A stretch of DNA of 64,000 nt from Actinoallomurus soli (GTDB lineage Bacteria > Actinomycetota > Actinomycetes > Streptosporangiales > Streptosporangiaceae): assembly GCF_024055715.1 (NCBI RefSeq), contig NZ_JAMXMV010000017.1, positions 62,001 through 126,000 of the forward strand, read 5' to 3'. Positions 40,875-51,606 of the stretch are shown piece by piece. The translations under genes were made by a program, and so were the position numbers. Under the pieces are notes generated by a model that did not search any database, was not told the origin of the DNA, and worked only from the letters and a program-made list of their open reading frames with translations. Positions within the stretch are counted from its first letter, which is position 1, and each line of letters opens with the position of its first letter.

Positions 40875-42053
40875 TCAACGGCCGGAAGCGGACCGTCCGG
40901 ACCATTCCGTCAGGTCGCGGCCCTCGATCGCGGCGGCCATCAGGTCGGGGAACGCGTCCGGCGTGCAGGCGAAGGCGGGAACGCCCAGGGAGGCCAGCGC
41001 GACGGCGTTCGCGTGGTCGAACGCGGGGGCGCCGTCGTCCGAGAGCGCCGTCAGCGCCACCATCCGCGTGCCCGCGGCGGTCAGGGCCGCCACCCGCTTC
41101 AGCATCTCGGCGCGCGACCCGCCCTCGTACAGGTCGCTGATCAGGACGAGGACGGTCTCGCGCGGGCGGGTGATCAGGCGCTCGCAGTAGGCCAGGGCCC
41201 GGTTGATGTCGGTGCCCCCGCCGAGCTGCGTGCCGAACAGCAGTTCGACCGGATCCCGCAGCCGGTCGGTGAGGTCCACCACCGCCGTGTCGAACGCGAC
41301 CAGTGACGTGCGCAGCGTCGGCATCGAGGCCAGCACCGCGCCGAGCACACCCGCGTGGACGACTGACGCCGCCATCGAGCCGCTCTGGTCGACGCACAGG
41401 ACGATGTCGCGTTCGACGGTCCGGCGCCGCCGTGCGTACCCGATCAGGTGGTCGGGGACGACGGTCCGGCGCGCCGGGACGTAGTGGCGGAGGTTGGCGC
41501 GGACGGTGCGGTGCCAGTCGACCTCGGAGGCGCGCCGGGGACGGCGCCGCCGCGCGGACCGGTCGAGGGCGCCGTCGACCGCCGACCTCAGGCGCCGCGC
41601 GAGGCGGTCCTCCAGCCGACGGACCACCGCGCGGACGACGGCCCGCGCGGACTCCCTGGCCCGCTCGGGCAGTACCCGGTTCAGCGACAGCAGAGTGCCG
41701 GCCAGGTGGACGTCGGGCTCCACCGCGTCCAGCATCTCGGGCTCGAGGAGCAGGCGGGTCAGGTCGAGGCGTTCGACGGCGTCCCGCTGCATGATCTGCA
41801 CGACGGTCGACGGGAAGAACGCCCGGATGTCGCCCAGCCAGCGGGCGACCTGCGGCGCGGACGCGCCGAGCCCGGCACCGCGGCCCCGCCGCCCGGCACC
41901 CCGCCCGCCCGTGCCGTACACCGCGTCCAGCGAGGCGTCCATCCTCGCTTCCTCACCGGTCAGCGCCGCGCCGGTGGCCTCGGCCGCCTCACCGCCGAGC
42001 ACCAGCCGCCAGCGTCGCAGCCGCTCCTCGTTCGCCTCCGCGTCGGCGGTCAC
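40875..42053 (-). CDS. VWA domain protein of the MoxR cluster
   Basis: 392 residues, GTG overlapping the DUF5682 stop by 4 nt. N-terminal helical part (1-195) with an Arg-rich linker, then a von Willebrand A domain (about 215-380) with full MIDAS: DQSGSMAAS, Thr in GGGTDINRA, and Asp in LVLISDLYEGG. Last gene of a five-gene minus-strand cluster. VWA proteins pair with MoxR AAA+ ATPases to remodel or insert metal into target proteins; here the pair is tied to DUF5682 and DUF5691. Confidence 0.92.
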   Translation of the reverse strand: MTADAEANEERLRRWRLVLGGEAAEATGAALTGEEARMDASLDAVYGTGGRGAGRRGRGAGLGASAPQVARWLGDIRAFFPSTVVQIMQRDAVERLDLTRLLLEPEMLDAVEPDVHLAGTLLSLNRVLPERARESARAVVRAVVRRLEDRLARRLRSAVDGALDRSARRRRPRRASEVDWHRTVRANLRHYVPARRTVVPDHLIGYARRRRTVERDIVLCVDQSGSMAASVVHAGVLGAVLASMPTLRTSLVAFDTAVVDLTDRLRDPVELLFGTQLGGGTDINRALAYCERLITRPRETVLVLISDLYEGGSRAEMLKRVAALTAAGTRMVALTALSDDGAPAFDHANAVALASLGVPAFACTPDAFPDLMAAAIEGRDLTEWSGRSASGR

Positions 42054-44863
42054 GGCCGCCCCCTTCCGTCGTCCGGCCGCGACTCCACCCGTCCGGCCGC
42101 CCCCGGCCGATCTCCCGGACCGGGTTTAGCCTGCGATCGCTCGAGGTCAGCCTGCAGGCTGCCGTGATCCGTCCGGGGATCGACGGGATCCCCCGGTGGG
42201 TTGGCGGGATCCGCCGGTGGATCAGCGGGATCCGCCCGTGGGTTGCCGGGATCTGTCGACGGGCTGTGGGGATCCGCCTGGGGGTTGCCGGAATCGGCCT
42301 GTGCGCCGCCGAGGATGCCGATGACCGTGCGTACGGCCGGGGCGGCGCGTTCGAGATCGAGCGCCTCGTCTTCGGGGAGGCCGGGAGCCGAGGCGGTCCC
42401 GATCCGGGCCACCCGCTCCCCGATGGACCGGCGCTCCGGCCCCTCGAAGGTTGCGAACGTCCGGCGCAGCAGCGGTAGCACGGCGGTGAAGGACTCCGGC
42501 GGCAGACCGGCGATCCAGGCGTCCACCAGACCGAGCAGCCGGTCGTCGTGAACGAGGATCAGCCCGCCACCGGACAGGAACCCCTCGATCCAGGCGGCCG
42601 CGCGAGCCGGTGACGCGCCGACCGACACGGCGCGCGCCATCCGGTCGCCGATCCCGCCCACGGTCCGGTCCGCGCCGTCGCTCCCGTGTGCGGAGCCGTC
42701 CGTGTCGTCGACCGGCCCGCCACCCGGCAGCCGGCCGTCGGCCGGCCTCTCGTCGACCAGCCCGCCGTCCAGCAGCAGCCGGGTGAGTCGTCCCTCGATG
42801 AGGCCGTGCAGGCCCGGGCGGTCGATCAGGGTGGCGAGCATCCCGTACCAGCGTGCGCTGTGCTCGCCGTCGCCGAGGAGCGACAGCGCGTCGTGGACGT
42901 CGTCCACGTGGCCGAGCAGCGCGCGGGCCGCGTCGTCGTCGAGGCCGGTCACCTCCGCGGGCAGCCCGACGCAGATGCGAACGACCAGGCCGTCGACCAC
43001 GGTGCGGAGCGGTTCGGCCGACGTTCCCCGGACGTCGCCGTAGCGCAGTGTGCGGACCAGCGAGGGCAGTGCCGCCATCAGGTGGGCGACGTCGGTGTCG
43101 GCCGCCGCCCGGTCCGCGAGCGCGGCCATGACGGCCGGCAGCGCGTCGCCGAGGTCGGCGGGCAGGCACCGCTCGGCCAGCGCGGTGAGCTCGGCGAGAC
43201 CGCCGGCCTCGGCGGCCAGCGCCCGTGCCCGCGCGGACGCCGCGCTTCGCACCGTCAGGCCCCACGCCCCGGCATCGACGAGCCGGACGTCGAACTCGGG
43301 CCGCCACGCCAGCGTCCAGGTCTCCCGGAAGGTCCCCTTGCCGCGCCGGGACTCGCCGGGCTCCCCCCAGGGGACCTCCAGCAGCCGGAGCCGGTGCAGC
43401 AGCCGGCTGCGGTCGAGATCGACGGGCCTTCGCAGGTCCAGGTCGAGTTCCTTGGCGGACGCCGACGGCTGGAACCGCAACCGCCGCTGTTCGTCCCGCA
43501 GGTCCCGCTGCAGCGGCACCATCGGCGCACCATCGGGTACGGCGCCGAGGCGCTCGCCGACGACCATGCGGCGCTGGATCAGGTCCAAGGGGAGTTCGGC
43601 GCCCTCGCAGAGCACGGCGAGCGCCGCCTCGGTGACCTCCGCCAGCCCGGCGAGCGGCCGGTCGCGCAGGGCGGCGAGCGCGTTCGCGAGGCGCACCGCC
43701 TCGATGACGTGGGCGGACGACACGGGCAGGTCCTCCGCCCGGAGCACCGCCGCCACCGCGGTGAACCAGCGCTCGATCGGGCGGTCGGGCGCGGTGAACA
43801 GGTGGTGATACCACCCGGGGGACGTGACGCCGGCGCCGTACCCGGAGCGGCTCGCCAGCCGGCCGTACGACCACGGCACCCAGGTCATCGCCACTCTCGT
43901 CGCCGGCAGCCCGCGCAGCGCGCGGTCGTCACCCGCGGCGGTGGGCGTGCCGGCCGAGCGGGCGGGGCCGAGCGCGGCGGCGATCGCGGGCACGTGCCAG
44001 GCGCCGCAGACGACCGCGATCCGCTCGTACCCGTCCTTGAGGGCGCGGTGTACCGTCCGGCGCATGTACGCCTCGCGCCGCTCCTCCCATCGCAGGTCGT
44101 CCTCTGGCAGGGCCGGCGCGTGCTCCCGGAGCGCGGCCATCGCCTCGGCGACGGCCTCGAAGGGCGCGGGGCCGCCGCCGCGGTGCTCGACGACGTCCTC
44201 CCACCAGCGTTCGGCGTCGTCGTGACCGGCCGCCTCGGCCAGCCGGGCCAGCGGATCGAGCCGTACGGCCACCGCCACGCCGGAGTCCTCGCCCGGCACG
44301 GTGCCGCGACCGGATCCGTCCCCCGGCACCGTGGCCCCGCCGGGTCCGTCGTCCGGAGCCGTGTCGCCACCGGGTCCGTCACCTGGAGCCGTGGTGACGC
44401 CGGGTCCGTCACCCGGCGCTGTGGCGTCGCCGGACCCATCGCCCGGCTTCAGGGCGACGCCGGATCCGTCGTCCGGTCCGGGAGCGTCACCGGTATCGGC
44501 GGGGACGTCCTCCGGCGGCCGGTCCGCGAGCAGGTGCGCGGCGGGCAGGTCGCAGAAGCGCACGGGCACCTTCGCCCGGAGAGCGTGGCGGATCGCCTGC
44601 CATTCGGGGCTGAACTCCGCGAACGGCCAGAACGCCGCCCGCCGCCCATCCCCGCCGTCCACGGCGTGAGCGAGCAGCGCGACCGGGGGCACCATGCCGG
44701 GGTCGGCGGCGAGATCGACGATGGCGTCGGCCTCGGGTGGTCCTTCGATCAGGACGACGTCGGGCCGCATCTCCTCCAGGGCGCGGCCGAGCGCCCGCGC
44801 CGAACCCGGGCCGTGATGCCGGATCCCGAAGATCCGGACGCGCTCGTGGGCGGGGGCGGCCAC
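42050..44863 (-). CDS. DUF5682 family protein with TraB/ChaN/EreA-like motifs
   Basis: About 937 residues from GTG 44863, two bases after the MoxR stop; an upstream ATG at 44905 inside the MoxR gene would add 14 residues. N-terminal domain (1-330): GIRHHGPGS at 13-21, VVLIEGPPEAD at 36-46, RREAYMRRT at 262-270 and VVCGAWHVPA at 284-293. This order (GxxHxxPxS, Glu, Arg-helix, GxxH) mirrors TraB/ChaN/erythromycin-esterase-like hydrolases. The rest is mostly helical with no familiar motif. Low-complexity repeats sit at about 126-195 and in the C-terminal 70 residues (NPQADP-type). Encoded between MoxR and VWA genes. Family function is unknown. Confidence 0.85.
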   Translation of the reverse strand: MAAPAHERVRIFGIRHHGPGSARALGRALEEMRPDVVLIEGPPEADAIVDLAADPGMVPPVALLAHAVDGGDGRRAAFWPFAEFSPEWQAIRHALRAKVPVRFCDLPAAHLLADRPPEDVPADTGDAPGPDDGSGVALKPGDGSGDATAPGDGPGVTTAPGDGPGGDTAPDDGPGGATVPGDGSGRGTVPGEDSGVAVAVRLDPLARLAEAAGHDDAERWWEDVVEHRGGGPAPFEAVAEAMAALREHAPALPEDDLRWEERREAYMRRTVHRALKDGYERIAVVCGAWHVPAIAAALGPARSAGTPTAAGDDRALRGLPATRVAMTWVPWSYGRLASRSGYGAGVTSPGWYHHLFTAPDRPIERWFTAVAAVLRAEDLPVSSAHVIEAVRLANALAALRDRPLAGLAEVTEAALAVLCEGAELPLDLIQRRMVVGERLGAVPDGAPMVPLQRDLRDEQRRLRFQPSASAKELDLDLRRPVDLDRSRLLHRLRLLEVPWGEPGESRRGKGTFRETWTLAWRPEFDVRLVDAGAWGLTVRSAASARARALAAEAGGLAELTALAERCLPADLGDALPAVMAALADRAAADTDVAHLMAALPSLVRTLRYGDVRGTSAEPLRTVVDGLVVRICVGLPAEVTGLDDDAARALLGHVDDVHDALSLLGDGEHSARWYGMLATLIDRPGLHGLIEGRLTRLLLDGGLVDERPADGRLPGGGPVDDTDGSAHGSDGADRTVGGIGDRMARAVSVGASPARAAAWIEGFLSGGGLILVHDDRLLGLVDAWIAGLPPESFTAVLPLLRRTFATFEGPERRSIGERVARIGTASAPGLPEDEALDLERAAPAVRTVIGILGGAQADSGNPQADPHSPSTDPGNPRADPADPPADPANPPGDPVDPRTDHGSLQADLERSQAKPGPGDRPGAAGRVESRPDDGRGRP
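44279..44446 (-). repeat. 30-bp tandem repeat inside the DUF5682 gene
   Basis: Five to six copies coding for a decapeptide PGDG(S/P)G-x-x-T-A (residues about 140-195) between the two halves of the N-terminal domain. The copies differ by several bases, so this is an old expansion. It makes a flexible acidic linker. Confidence 0.75.
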
Positions 44864-44865
44864 GG

Positions 44866-45948
44866 TCAGGAGACCTCGCGGCAGGCGCGGTAGAAGTCGC
44901 TCCACTCGGGGCGTTCGCGCACGACGGTCTCGAGGTACTCCTGCCAGACCACGCGGTCCGACACCGGGTCCTGCACGACCGTGCCGACGATGCCGCCGGC
45001 CACGTCGGCCGGGCGCAGCACCCTGTCGCCGAAGTGGGTCGCGAGGACGCGGCCGCTCGTGATCACCGAGATCGCCTCCGCGGTGCTCAGCGTGCCGCTG
45101 GGCGACTTCAGGCGCGTACGCCCGTCGGCGGTGCGGCCGGAGCGCAGCTCACGGAAGACGGTCACGACCCGCCGGATCTCCTCCAGCCCGGCGACGGTCT
45201 CCGGCAGCTCCAGCGACGTGCCGATCTGGGCGACCCGGCGGGCGACGATGTCGACCTCTTCCTCGGTCGTCGCGGGCAGCGGCAGCACGACGGTGTTGAA
45301 CCGGCGGCGCAGCGCGCTGGACAGGTCGTTCACGCCGCGGTCCCGGTCGTTGGCGGTCGCGATGACCGTGAAGCCCTTACGCGCCTGCACCTCGGTGCCC
45401 AGCTCCGGAACGGGCAGGGCCTTCTCCGAGAGGATCGTGATGAGGGAGTCCTGAACGTCGGACGGCATCCGGGTGAGCTCCTCGATCCGGGCGACGGCCC
45501 CCGACCGCATCGCCCGCATCACCGGGCTCGGCACCAGGGCCTGCTCCGACGGACCCTCGGCGAGCAGCCGCGCGTAGTTCCAGCCGTACCGGATCGCCTC
45601 CTCCGCGGTGCCCGCCGTGCCCTGGACGAGGAGCGTCGAGTCGCCGCTGACCGCGGCCGCCAGGTGCTCCGACACCCAGGTCTTGGCGGTGCCGGGCACG
45701 CCGAGCAGCAGCAGCGCCCGGTCCGTGGCGAGCGTGGCGACGGCCACCTCGATCAGGCGGCGCGGGCCGACGTACTTCGGCGTGACGACCGTGCCGTCGG
45801 GCAGCGTCCCGCCCAGGAGGTAGACCGTGACGGCCCGCGGCGACAGCCGCCAGCCTGGCGGGCGCGGCCGGTCGTCCCGTTCGGCGAGGAGGGCGAGCTC
45901 GTCGGCGAACTGGTGCTCGGCGTGCGGGCGCAGCACGGCCTCGGTCAT
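44866..45948 (-). CDS. MoxR-family AAA+ ATPase
   Basis: 360 residues from ATG 45948 with GAAGGAG 8 nt upstream. Walker A GVPGTAKTWVSEHL, Walker B-type VARIEELTRMPSDVQ (with IEE in place of the usual DEI), sensor 1 VIATANDRDRG, arginine finger SALRRRFN, plus C-terminal lid domain. MoxR ATPases act with VWA partners as chaperones; the three downstream genes are coupled to it by overlaps or 2-nt spacing, so it is the motor of this cluster. DUF5691 lies 81 nt upstream. Confidence 0.92.
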   Translation of the reverse strand: MTEAVLRPHAEHQFADELALLAERDDRPRPPGWRLSPRAVTVYLLGGTLPDGTVVTPKYVGPRRLIEVAVATLATDRALLLLGVPGTAKTWVSEHLAAAVSGDSTLLVQGTAGTAEEAIRYGWNYARLLAEGPSEQALVPSPVMRAMRSGAVARIEELTRMPSDVQDSLITILSEKALPVPELGTEVQARKGFTVIATANDRDRGVNDLSSALRRRFNTVVLPLPATTEEEVDIVARRVAQIGTSLELPETVAGLEEIRRVVTVFRELRSGRTADGRTRLKSPSGTLSTAEAISVITSGRVLATHFGDRVLRPADVAGGIVGTVVQDPVSDRVVWQEYLETVVRERPEWSDFYRACREVS

Positions 45949-46029
45949 CGGAGGGGCTCCTTCGTCGGGGGTCATTCGGTCGGTCTCACTCGCCGTTCGC
46001 CTGGGGCCGCGCTCGCCGCGCGGGCGGGG

Positions 46030-47511
46030 TCATCGCAGCTCCCCGAGCATGTCGTGCCGGAATCGGAGGACGTCGGCGAGCTCGCCGAGCGGCCGGTGGC
46101 CGGGGTGCCGCCGGGCGAGCTCGTCCAGGCGCGGCGCGACGGCCGGGGCGAGGCGCTCGCCGGCGAGGCGGCACAGGTCGGCGGGGAACCGCCCGAGGGC
46201 GGGATCCGCCAGGGCGGCGATCGTCACGTCGGACAGCGCGCCGGCCCAGGGCCCGGGGACGCGTTCGAGCACGGTGAGACGGGCGGCGTGGTCCTCGATC
46301 CGGCGTACCGCGTCGGCCGCGCGATCCTCACGCTCGGCGACGGGCAGGACGTCCAGCAGGTCGGCGAGCACGGGGACGTCGCCGACCACGACGTCGCCCG
46401 CCAGCAGCGTCTGGGCCCAGGCGGCGTCCCGCTGCCGCGCCGCCGCGCGGGCCCATCCGAGGTGGACGTCCCGCCTGACGTGCTCGTCCGGCGTGGACCG
46501 TGCGCCGGTGGTGACCGGCAGGGCGGCGACGCGCTCCGGAGGCAGGCCGAACAGCGCGGTCCAGGTGGACGGCGGCGTACGGGCGAGGATCTCCCGCAGC
46601 CAGCCCGCGCGGTTCCCGACGCGCTCGATCGCGTGGTACGGGATGCCGTCGCGCCGCATGCCCTCGTCGTGGTGCTCCGGTGGTTCGACGGCGATCCGCT
46701 CCAGGCCGCCCGCCGGCCCGGCCACCGGGTGCAGGCAGGCGAGCGCCCGTTCGGTCATGCGCCGTGCGTACGCCGAGCCGGGCAGCCGGGCGAGCAGGTC
46801 GGCCGCGATGCGCCGCACCTCCAGGCCACGATCGTCCAGGGCCGCCTCCAGGAACTCCTCGTCCGCGAGGGAGAGCCCGCGCTCGAACGCCGTGAGGAAC
46901 CGCGCCCGCTCCGGCGCCGGCTCACGCCCCCACGTCGAGGACAGCGTCGTACGGGCCGCGGCCGGGTCGGTGGCCCGCGACCGCAGCAGGTGGGCCATGC
47001 GCTGAGCCCGGGTGCCGGTCGACCACACCCCGGGATCCTCGACCTCCTCACCACCGCCGGCCACGACGAGGTACGCCCAGTCGAGGTTCTGCATGGCCAG
47101 CCAGACGCCCCGCCGCCCGGCGGCCCGCGCGATCGAGGGACGTAGCGCCCGGTCCGCGCGCCCCTTGTGCAGCAGGTCCGGGAGCAGCCGCGGCGGGACC
47201 CGGCGGCCGCTCCGGGCCGCCGCCTCGAGCCACTCGGGCAGGACACGGGCATGCTCGCCCGACAGGATGCGGCGCAACCGGTCGGCCGCCGTGTCCGGCA
47301 CGACGGGTGCGGTCTCCGCCGGCGCGGGGGCGGTCGGCTCCGCGCTCACCGGCCGCCGGCCGGCGCGCCTGCGCACCGTCAGCAGCGCCGCCTGGTCCAG
47401 CAGGCGGGCCGCCGGATCGGCCGAGCCGCCGGGGACCTCGTCGAGCGGCGGCACCGGCCGCTGCCGCGTCCCCAGCAGCGCGGCGGTCACGTGCTCACCC
47501 CACGCGCTCAC
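46030..47511 (-). CDS. DUF5691 family protein
   Basis: 493 residues. It opens MSAWGEHVTAALLGTRQRPV, the usual beginning of these proteins, followed by a long series of helices with HEAT-like spacing; RFLTAFERGLSLADEEFLEAALDD and RRIAADLLARLPGS are clear repeat-like helices. No enzymatic motif visible, so probably a scaffold or adaptor. It always seems to travel with MoxR, DUF5682, VWA and SWIM-domain genes in actinomycetes (from memory of such clusters). It starts 15 nt after the SWIM-type gene. Confidence 0.8.
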   Translation of the reverse strand: MSAWGEHVTAALLGTRQRPVPPLDEVPGGSADPAARLLDQAALLTVRRRAGRRPVSAEPTAPAPAETAPVVPDTAADRLRRILSGEHARVLPEWLEAAARSGRRVPPRLLPDLLHKGRADRALRPSIARAAGRRGVWLAMQNLDWAYLVVAGGGEEVEDPGVWSTGTRAQRMAHLLRSRATDPAAARTTLSSTWGREPAPERARFLTAFERGLSLADEEFLEAALDDRGLEVRRIAADLLARLPGSAYARRMTERALACLHPVAGPAGGLERIAVEPPEHHDEGMRRDGIPYHAIERVGNRAGWLREILARTPPSTWTALFGLPPERVAALPVTTGARSTPDEHVRRDVHLGWARAAARQRDAAWAQTLLAGDVVVGDVPVLADLLDVLPVAEREDRAADAVRRIEDHAARLTVLERVPGPWAGALSDVTIAALADPALGRFPADLCRLAGERLAPAVAPRLDELARRHPGHRPLGELADVLRFRHDMLGELR

Positions 47512-47526
47512 GGTTCACCTCATCGG

Positions 47527-48699
47527 TCACAGCGGCACGGCTCCTTCCTCGGCCTGCCAGGCGGACAGCGGCAGCAGCCCGCGCGGCGACCACTCGCCGG
47601 CGACGGTGAGCGGCCGGCCACCGGAGACGGCCCACAGCCGCCAGACGTCGGACGCGCGCAGCGGCAGCGCGGCGCCGTCCGCGTCGACCAGGCAGGGACC
47701 GCCCGCCTCGTCCCGCGCGGGCCGGACGCCGGCCAGCACGGCGGGCCACCGCTCCAGCCAGGGATCGCGGGCCAGTGCGTCGGCGTACTCCCGGAGCAGC
47801 CCCGGCACGGTCGTGCCGCGCGGCGGCCGGCGCACGGGCGCGGCCTGCCGGGCGGCCACGAGCGCGCGCAGCGCCAGGGCCCCCGGGTAGAAGGCCAGCT
47901 CGGCGTCGACCGTGTCGCCGACGACGAGCGACGAGTCCAGCGCCCGCCCCGCCCGGTCCGGCGCCCGTCCCGCGGGAACCGGCGCGTCCGGCACCCTCCC
48001 GTGCGCGTCCGGCGTCCGTGCCTGCGCGTCCGGCGCTCGTCCGTGCACACCGGGTGTCCGTGCCTGCGCGCCCGGCGTGCGCGCCGACGCGCCCGCCGTC
48101 CGTCCCGGCGCGGCGAAGGACAGGACGAGCGCGGGCCGCCCGGTCTCCTGGCCGCGCAGCCAGACGCGGCGGGTGAGGAGGCGGTCCTGCTCCACGTCAC
48201 GGCACCCCGCGACGTACCAGTGATCCCGCACCGTGTCACCCGCCAGGACCTCCTCCTGGCTCACCGGGAATCCGACATGGGACCGGACGGTGGCCCGCAG
48301 CGGTGCGGGCAGCTCGCCGCGACGACGGAACGCAGTGACCAGCAGCCGCAGCAGGGCGTACTCCTCCAGCAGCCGCTCGGGCCGGCCGTCGGCGGGCAGC
48401 GAACCGAGCTCCCGCACCCGGGACGCCAGCGCGCCGGCCTGGGCGTCGACGAGCCGCCGGGCGACGCCGTCCCACATCGAGGACGGGGCGCGATCGGCGT
48501 GCGCGAGGCCCTGGGCGACCTGGTCGCACAGCCATCGGTCGAGCTCCTCGACCCCGGCGGCGACCCGCTGCTCACGCCGCTCCACCGTCGCCGTCACCGG
48601 CGCGTCGTCTCCGGTGGCGCGGCGGCCGGGTGTGTCGTGCACACGATCCCGCCCCACGCGTTCGATCACATGCTCGAACCTATCGGCGCCCGCCGACAT
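47527..48699 (-). CDS. SWIM-family protein C-terminal domain, lacking the SWIM zinc finger
   Basis: 390 residues from ATG 48699; no ribosome site, so the start is uncertain (several internal GTGs are possible, for example near 48637 or 48603). From ERREQRVAAGVEELDRWLCD on, the sequence matches the region that in related proteins follows a CxC-CxH SWIM finger, but no such cysteines occur, and the upstream imine-reductase gene ends only 36 nt away. So the N-terminal half is lost. A run of RTPGxxAR-type imperfect repeats (residues about 208-245) is inserted. A palindrome-like GTTCGA ... TCGAAC at 48660-48679 may be a promoter element if translation starts further in. First gene of the cluster. 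Confidence 0.7.
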   Translation of the reverse strand: MSAGADRFEHVIERVGRDRVHDTPGRRATGDDAPVTATVERREQRVAAGVEELDRWLCDQVAQGLAHADRAPSSMWDGVARRLVDAQAGALASRVRELGSLPADGRPERLLEEYALLRLLVTAFRRRGELPAPLRATVRSHVGFPVSQEEVLAGDTVRDHWYVAGCRDVEQDRLLTRRVWLRGQETGRPALVLSFAAPGRTAGASARTPGAQARTPGVHGRAPDAQARTPDAHGRVPDAPVPAGRAPDRAGRALDSSLVVGDTVDAELAFYPGALALRALVAARQAAPVRRPPRGTTVPGLLREYADALARDPWLERWPAVLAGVRPARDEAGGPCLVDADGAALPLRASDVWRLWAVSGGRPLTVAGEWSPRGLLPLSAWQAEEGAVPL

Positions 48700-50348: not shown

Positions 50349-50655
50349 CCGGCCCTCCCGGAACCTCGGTCCTCCTGAGTACGACGCCGCCCGGCCGGCC
50401 AGGGTTCCGGCACGATCTTGATTTTTCTCGAATTCAGCAACCATTGGTCTTTACAGATCGCGTACGGCGTCGGCTTGCGGTGGCGAGTTGGATGTCTCTG
50501 ACCAGGTCCGGACAGGGGCCTGAAATCCGCCTTGACATGACTTCTGAAGATTATTTAGTTGAAGCAATCCGCGATCGCAGGGGCGCATGAATGTGAATGA
50601 CGTTTCCTCTGCGAGGCCGCCGGTTCTGCGCCAACCGTTATTCCAGGAGGACTCC
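50349..50655. other. AT-richer intergenic region with a candidate promoter
   Basis: The 307 nt between the small protein and the membrane protein are clearly poorer in GC than the surroundings. A consensus -35 TTGACA lies at 50532-50537; 18 nt later TAGTTG (50556-50561) may be a weak -10, about 95 nt before the membrane-protein start. No gene seen. Confidence 0.45.
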
Positions 50656-51606
50656 ATGGCCCAGGTGACATCCGACGCCGACGTCCGCGCCCCGGTGCCC
50701 GGCGACACCCTTTCGGCGCCCCGCCGCGCCGTCGTCATCGGCGCGAGCGTCCTGGCGGCCTTCCTCCTCACCGTCGTCTGGTCGGCCGAGTTCGTCGACA
50801 AGACGATCGGCCAGAACGTCGCCGGGTCCCTGCTCGGCCACGATCCCGTGCGGACCCCGATCGCCGGCTCGGCGGCGGGCATCGTCTACGCGTTCGTGTC
50901 CGGTCTGGCCGGTACGTTCACCGCCTGCAACATCGCCGTCTTCGGCGCAGTCGCCCCGATGGTGGGCGAGCCGACCTCCCTGCGGCGACGGCTCTGGAAC
51001 TCGCTGCGGCCGCTCGCCTGGCTCGGCCTGGGCATGGTCGTCGTGTCGGCGACCTACGGCGCGATCACCGGCGTGGCGGGCACCCGGATGCCGCAGTTCT
51101 CGACGGCTTCGGGCCGGCCCACCCTCACGCCGCGCCTCGTCCAGTCGATGATCGCCTTCGGCGTCATCGGCACCGTGTTCGTCCTGCTCGGACTGGTCGC
51201 GCTCGGTGTCGTCCCCGACCCGCTCGCCCGCCTGTCCAGGAGGTTCCCGCAGGCGCGGTCCGTGCTGGTCGGCATGATGATCGGCGGGTTCCTCATCGGC
51301 CGTCCCTACCCGCTCTACCGGGTGCTGTTCCGTGATGCCGCGCAGAGCCACGACCCCTTCTTCGGAGCGGCCGCCTTCGCCCTCCAGTCGCTGGGGAACG
51401 TCCTGCTCATGGCGCTCATCACCGTCGTCCTCGTACGGCTCACCGGCGGGCGCGTGCGCCGGTGGGTCGCCGCACGTCCGGGACGGGCGGCGCTCGTGAC
51501 CGGTGCGGCGTTCCTGGTCGCGGGTGTCTTCACCGTCCTCTACTGGGACGTCCGGCTCCTGTCGAACGTCGGATACCTGTGGTATCCGACCGCGCCGTGG
51601 ACGTGA
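50656..51606 (+). CDS. multi-pass membrane protein of unknown function
   Basis: 316 residues from ATG 50656 (AGGAGG, 5-nt spacing). About seven hydrophobic segments: VVIGASVLAAFLLTVVWSA, AAGIVYAFVSGLAGTFTACN, LAWLGLGMVVVSATYGAI, MIAFGVIGTVFVLLGLVAL, a mid-region LVGMMIGGFLIGRPYPLYRV, LQSLGNVLLMALITVVLVR and AALVTGAAFLVAGVFTVLYW. The segment TFTACNIAVFGAVAPM recalls the cysteine/proline helices of CcdA/DsbD electron carriers, but only one Cys is present in it. It is followed 50 nt later by an AhpD-like protein; the pair may act together against oxidants. Confidence 0.75.
   Translation: MAQVTSDADVRAPVPGDTLSAPRRAVVIGASVLAAFLLTVVWSAEFVDKTIGQNVAGSLLGHDPVRTPIAGSAAGIVYAFVSGLAGTFTACNIAVFGAVAPMVGEPTSLRRRLWNSLRPLAWLGLGMVVVSATYGAITGVAGTRMPQFSTASGRPTLTPRLVQSMIAFGVIGTVFVLLGLVALGVVPDPLARLSRRFPQARSVLVGMMIGGFLIGRPYPLYRVLFRDAAQSHDPFFGAAAFALQSLGNVLLMALITVVLVRLTGGRVRRWVAARPGRAALVTGAAFLVAGVFTVLYWDVRLLSNVGYLWYPTAPWT

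Follow-up and report, generated by a model that had tools for sequence, protein, structure and literature searches.

The window analysed here, 64,000 nucleotides of Actinoallomurus soli (contig NZ_JAMXMV010000017.1), carries on its minus strand (40875–48699) a cluster of five genes that, judged by homology, is a MoxR/VWA system of the YehL type. The system is conserved and mostly chromosomal. What is new is that a DUF5682 protein, the constant partner of this motor pair, holds a predicted domain of the TraB/TIKI-like kind whose putative active site never varies among the proteins aligned. An earlier note on this DNA had described the gene cluster and missed both its YehL-type identity and its counterpart in Escherichia coli K-12, yehLMPQ. 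We see an even chance that the cluster encodes a remodelling machine in which the DUF5682 (YehM) partner bears a TraB/TIKI-like hydrolase or metal site.

The DUF5682 protein and its putative active site

The DUF5682 protein, a homologue of YehM (42050–44863, minus strand), matches PF18934 with 924.8 bits, and its AlphaFold model covers residues 20–858 at a mean predicted local distance difference test score of 81.2 (residues are numbered on the longest open reading frame, P0001, from 44905). It falls into an N-terminal domain of roughly residues 20–354 (43844–44848) and a C-terminal part that is mostly helical and HEAT-like (42332–43843). As the helical part dominated the fold search with the full-length protein, in which no entry of the EreA/ChaN/TraB (TIKI) superfamily appeared among the 50 matches listed in either output, the compact N-terminal domain was folded separately, in the homologue L152. 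This predicted domain has a parallel beta-sheet core like those of ChaN, EreC and HopBA1, and its structural matches were ChaN, HopBA1, EreC, BcR135, PMT and RRSP, outranked only by a chain of the Tetrahymena complex IV; by Foldseek alone, ChaN ranked second (E-value 3.8e-2). A TraB profile did not find the Tetrahymena chain, and we do not call it a TraB protein. A sequence search of the Protein Data Bank with DUF5682 gave no match. Taken as a prediction, the EreA/ChaN/TraB (TIKI) fold of the N-terminal domain is well supported. The window's own domain holds a low-confidence insert at about residues 133–214 (around 44264–44509), with low-complexity PGDGPG-like repeats; apart from L037, every other row of alignment A1 has a shorter stretch here or none.

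The stretches that had been read by eye in the earlier note (GIRHHGPGS, EG, RREAYMRR and VVCGAWH) are all present, and they map onto this domain, all on the minus strand. Motif 1, G27-x-R-H30-H31 (44813–44827), lies at the end of strand 1 and E54 (44744–44746) directly after strand 2, while R277-E278-x-x-M281 (44063–44077) sits in a helix ahead of the strand leading to motif 2, G301-x-x-H304 (43994–44005). The L152 model places the corresponding motif residues at or just after strands 2–7, 29–32 (followed by E33) and 186–191, with the residues matching R277-E278-x-x-M281 carried by helix 162–180.

How well are these residues kept? We aligned 99 DUF5682 proteins drawn from four architectures (81 of type A, the layout of the window, 7 of type B, 6 of type C and 5 of type D; see below). 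All 99 keep H30, H31, E54, R277, E278, M281, G301 and H304, which make up 8 of the 27 invariant columns. G27 is kept in 93 of 99, with proline in its place in the five type D proteins and in one of type B; type D also has cysteine for R29 and is otherwise the same at the site. Because 80 of the 99 proteins were fetched with patterns containing GxRHH or VVxGxxH, the counts from these 80 are biased in favour of the motifs. The same residues are kept, however, by 18 proteins of types B, C and D and by 18 proteins of alignment A1 that were obtained without a motif filter, that is, through a PF18934 profile search, from the window or from the E. coli record. We take the conserved set as a putative active site of TraB/TIKI-like character. 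The kinship of DUF5682 with TraB, ChaN and EreA, which the earlier note had staked on a related predicted fold and on conservation of the motif histidines, is borne out on both counts, by the predicted fold and by histidines that never vary in the proteins aligned.

Within the superfamily, DUF5682 follows TraB in the order GxxH-E-R-GxxH, at similar spacing. In five aligned TraB proteins (of eight gathered) the glutamate follows 26 residues after GxxH and the second GxxH starts 22 after the arginine; by our own count both distances are 24 in the window's protein. The first glutamate of the 2His/2Glu site of the Ere and RRSP type is absent from DUF5682, where positions 27–29 are G/P, V/I and R/C, and for this reason the protein resembles TraB rather than Ere; the five aligned TraB proteins lack this glutamate as well, and the feature is not defining for TraB. 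Profile comparisons agree in direction and gave weak scores, with 27.7 for TraB, 26.7 for Ere and 18.1 for ChaN, and the ChaN score does not stand out because the best profile outside the superfamily, SWIM, reached 19.75. With smaller alignments the scores were 21.7 (TraB) and 17.0 (ChaN), against 28.5 for TraB versus ChaN. A Pfam scan found no TraB (PF01963, TraB_PrgY_gumN), ChaN or Ere match in DUF5682 up to an E-value of 1, and we thus claim kinship at the level of the superfamily, not membership of a family. What sets DUF5682 apart from the rest of the superfamily is a pair of histidines in place of one, the fusion to a large helical part, and the tie to a MoxR–VWA motor.

The motor pair, its companions and its relatives

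The motor itself is a MoxR AAA+ ATPase (44866–45975, minus strand; PF07728, AAA_5, 135.2 bits), in which we assign Walker A from G92, Walker B at E165-E166, sensor 1 at N209 and an arginine-finger region at R224/R225. In an alignment of 16 MoxR proteins, YehL among them, Walker A, the E-E of Walker B, the sensor 1 asparagine and the paired arginines do not vary. Its partner, a YehP homologue of 392 residues (40875–42053, minus strand), matches VWA_CoxE (PF05762) with 188 bits and carries the metal-ion-dependent adhesion site (MIDAS) D222-x-S-x-S, T281, D307. This site is kept in YehP and in those relatives whose frame covers it, with asparagine for threonine in two Chloroflexota rows (the VWA frame of L142 is split and stands outside the comparison). 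Accordingly, the AAA+ motor with a VWA partner that had been proposed earlier stands, with both domains recognised by Pfam and their motifs intact. The VWA_CoxE domain spans residues 151–368, and too few residues follow it to form an effector domain.

Co-encoded MoxR and VWA proteins are likewise found in NorQ–NorD, CbbQ–CbbO and RavA–ViaA, with which the window shares an intact Walker A and sensor 1 and a NorD-like MIDAS. For NorQD it is reported that the VWA domain inserts a finger into the MoxR pore and that NorD is twisted by the motor, which allows metal insertion (PMC13036017, PMC9976466). The reported partners of these known pairs are respiratory complexes or Rubisco, whereas the constant partner in the window is the protein with the TIKI-like domain. 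In a jumbo-phage MoxR–vWA pair, too, an enzyme domain precedes VWA in one chain next to MoxR, the layout of type C below; the fused domain there is described only as a metallopeptidase (PMC7824862).

Among the closest known systems is that of E. coli K-12, in which yehL (MoxR), yehM, yehP (VWA) and yehQ (SWIM) stand in a row. Searched with phmmer, the window's proteins matched YehL at an E-value of 2.8e-79, YehM at 1.1e-39 and YehP at 1.7e-71, and YehM itself matches Pfam DUF5682 with 330.8 bits, a label that RefSeq records already give to yehM. The MoxR, DUF5682 and VWA proteins are thus homologous between the two sets, and a SWIM protein occurs in both. The sets differ in that E. coli has an upstream DUF4132 protein, YehI, and the SWIM protein YehQ (with, by eye, a second finger-like motif), while the window has DUF5691 and a SWIM protein part without its finger; no match to DUF5691 turned up in the control genome of E. 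coli. DUF5682 was found in two of 14 control genomes, those of E. coli and Deinobacterium chartae. The YehL subfamily has been named, and E. coli K-12 has two MoxR proteins, of which YehL is one (PMC3893208). Among the open PubMed Central papers searched we found no mention of DUF5682 and no study of YehM or DUF5691, so that the subfamily appears, as far as found there, to be named and uncharacterised.

A scan of one genome per species (84,980 species) gave 586 confirmed loci, of which the best 80 were taken as relatives. By our own placement they span at least five phyla, with Actinomycetota, Cyanobacteria, Chloroflexota, Bacteroidota (Niastella, Terrimonas), the proteobacterium Thiofilum and one unplaced uncultured bacterium. 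The closest among these 80 is in Actinoallomurus purpureus (L078). All five genes are present in 63 of the 80 and MoxR together with DUF5682 in 76, several of the others reaching a contig edge. Since the gene set recurs in this way, the five frames are not chance open reading frames. The order SWIM–DUF5691–MoxR–DUF5682–VWA was seen in 34 of 80 loci (fusions included) and a divergent one in 28, with DUF5691–SWIM and MoxR–DUF5682–VWA as two units, for instance in the Streptomyces-type loci L085 and L089; the other 18 form smaller classes, many cut by a contig end. Besides this architecture, type A, we distinguish type B, DUF4132–MoxR–DUF5682–VWA–SWIM as in E. coli (L043, L044, L045, L202 and L203, with L207 similar), type C, in which MoxR stands beside a single DUF5682+VWA frame (L046, L047, L198–L201), and type D, VWA–MoxR–DUF5682-like (L028, L204, L205, L206, L209), a distant relative that scores 85–123 bits in a profile search. 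The window's own genome holds a second, divergent set of type D (G000:C57:228000-244000, L028), which keeps HH, E, RE..M and GxxH. In the window's phylum the system is patchy, with 25 of 296 genomes carrying it, and within its genus, where eight genomes were covered, type A and type B are found in three each and two give no match.

Of the companion genes, that for the DUF5691 protein (46030–47511, minus strand) matches PF18944 with 457.7 bits. The fifth frame (47527–48699, minus strand), for which a Pfam scan returned no family up to an E-value of 1, is a homologue of the C-terminal region of the SWIM proteins of relatives and has no zinc finger. A SWIM-finger companion, common in the YehL type and taken here as not defining it, is therefore absent from the window; elsewhere in its genome the best match to the finger reached only an E-value of 0.74, and the type C and D loci that were read gave no match to the SWIM model. 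The C-terminal part is present in 66 of 80 loci, with a finger in 60 and no pattern match in six (L078, L108, L110, L124, L135 and L148), of which L108 starts at a contig edge. The finger is missing, and the C-terminal part kept, in the close relatives L078 and L041 as well, indicating that in this lineage the C-terminal part was retained without it. Of 41 genomes, the 17 with type A DUF5682 (the window's own included) are also those with DUF5691; 15 of the 17 were typed by gene order and two (G010, G011) by profile score only. The three genomes that have type B instead lack DUF5691. YehQ shows no similarity to DUF5691, and has only the finger region (26 columns) in common with the type A SWIM proteins.

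Frames that join these proteins are informative. A single reading frame encodes both SWIM and DUF5691 in six of 80 loci (L082, L088, L132, L145, L122 and L124, from Actinoplanes, Symbioplanes and Nocardia), and also in L208. For DUF5682 and VWA the fusion itself defines type C, and a count of six fused out of six would be no test. Still, these fusions are the strongest sign that DUF5682 and VWA act together, and likewise SWIM and DUF5691.

In the order of transcription, the window's genes run SWIM-protein C-terminal part, DUF5691, MoxR, DUF5682 and VWA. All five genes of the earlier description were recovered, four of them with Pfam scores above the cut-offs. Its statement that they are coupled by overlaps is partly right, a clear overlap being present at one junction only, where the start of VWA and the stop of DUF5682 share 4 nt (GTGA). 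MoxR starts 54 nt from DUF5691, which lies 15 nt from the SWIM frame. A GTG at 44863, 2 nt past the MoxR stop, is the likely start of DUF5682, the longer frame from 44905 implying an overlap of 40 nt; this start also explains why the earlier note numbered as His16, His17 and His290 the residues that are here H30, H31 and H304. Promoter and terminator scans found none. Eight neighbouring frames scanned with Pfam comprise a TetR regulator, an amidohydrolase, an MFS transporter, a reductive aminase-like enzyme, an HxlR regulator, a carboxymuconolactone decarboxylase-family protein, a Sir2 protein encoded 3.6 kb from the cluster and one frame without a match; there is no transposase or phage gene among them. 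Near the cluster, a frame of 339 residues (50587–51606) that looks hydrophobic matches no Pfam family.

Possible mechanism and competing explanations

What might such a machine do? Its chemistry, the action of its motor and its substrate we infer. The MoxR ring would hydrolyse ATP and exert a pull on its VWA partner in the manner of NorQ and NorD, an analogy carried over by homology. The VWA protein would hold DUF5682 through its MIDAS and thereby open, remodel or metallate the HH-E-R-H site, which in turn may hydrolyse a client that SWIM–DUF5691 presents to it, or bind a cofactor for that client. A chromosomal role in stress or maturation appears more likely than one in defence. A bolder version, which we put forward as tentative and rather doubtful, makes YehL systems a separate class of AAA+-controlled hydrolases, in which MoxR twists a VWA lever, switching on or metallating the TraB/TIKI site of DUF5682, with a SWIM–DUF5691 arm selecting the client.

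Alternatively, DUF5682 could be no hydrolase and instead a client or carrier of metal or haem, whose HH-E-H site is loaded by MoxR–VWA; this is possible and somewhat unlikely. It would fit the haem-binding ChaN as the top structural match of known family. The map position of molR at 47.3 min presumably corresponds to the yeh region. A DUF4132 (YehI-like) gene is part of type B operons and E. coli molR is placed at that position in a paper that also reports a synthetic defect of lepA with molR1 (PMC4245954), NorQ–NorD inserts iron (PMC13036017), and CoxD is needed for the CuSMoO2 cluster (PMC3893208). Yet the full H-E-R-H set, in the order of TraB and at similar spacing, exceeds a simple ligand set, and in Deinococcus cells depleted of the DNA-damage repressor DdrO a DUF4132 gene is strongly raised, with moeA and moeB unchanged, which lends no support to a molybdate role (PMC8533742). 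According to the same source, a WGR gene of Deinococcus is strongly raised as well under these conditions; both families have members next to yehLMPQ in E. coli, a possible hint of a DNA-damage role for type B operons. A mere adaptor or scaffold, comparable to the N-terminal part of NorD and with conserved residues that are structural, we think unlikely. The type C domain does stand N-terminal to VWA in one chain, the NorD layout, and the C-terminal part of DUF5682 is long and helical, but the invariant polar residues follow directly upon core strands 1 and 2 and a late strand, and their His-Glu-His order is that of the functional residues reported for RRSP.

The earlier note had suggested a protein-remodelling or a defence-like conflict device, the latter resembling in logic the ternary MoxR–VWA conflict systems of multicellular bacteria (Kaur et al. 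2020). The logic is indeed the same, a MoxR–VWA pair with a third large protein (PMC7159879), and further points in favour are an occurrence in 11 genomes of one genus, probably Streptomyces, matches in 36 of 72,556 PLSDB records (some of them whole chromosomes by length), the nearby Sir2 gene, and a patchy distribution within the window's genus that leaves some room. The third protein of the window, however, shows no match to the third components of those systems: a Pfam scan of the five proteins found no VMAP, iSTAND, FtsH or beta-propeller, only DUF5682 and DUF5691 scoring above cut-off besides MoxR and VWA, and there is no variable effector on VWA. Run on the cluster and not on its neighbours, PADLOC gave weak matches only, the best to IetA (14.2 bits, E-value 0.0048). 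A scan of IMG/VR with two short peptide patterns, which was not exhaustive, gave nine matches of which none was confirmed, and one of 50,697 phage records had a partial DUF5682 match. That record, MT835988.1 (H21), is a 14-kb unannotated 'Bacteriophage sp.' from human stool with 34.7% identity over the partial match, and may be phage or host DNA. Finally, among 5426 genomes of E. coli, 5162 contain yehLMPQ at no less than 80% cover (5301 with any match). In a control that contrasts two other loci only, RavA–ViaA occurs in 5364 and McrBC in 576, so that the operon is near-core like the former and not patchy like the latter, which counts against defence. We therefore reject defence as the main explanation on the Pfam, PADLOC, viral and E. 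coli evidence, and regard a conflict system as quite improbable.

Implications for YehL-type systems

MoxR ATPases are widespread, and for YehL we found no function in the papers searched. The predicted fold of YehM and its invariant candidate active-site residues now offer a set of residues that can be tested in E. coli K-12. If the motor gates a TIKI-type site, this would join two well-studied and hitherto separate protein classes. Should the hydrolase class proposed above be real, type C would have lever and enzyme in one chain, and nearly every E. coli would carry an overlooked ATP-gated protease or esterase.
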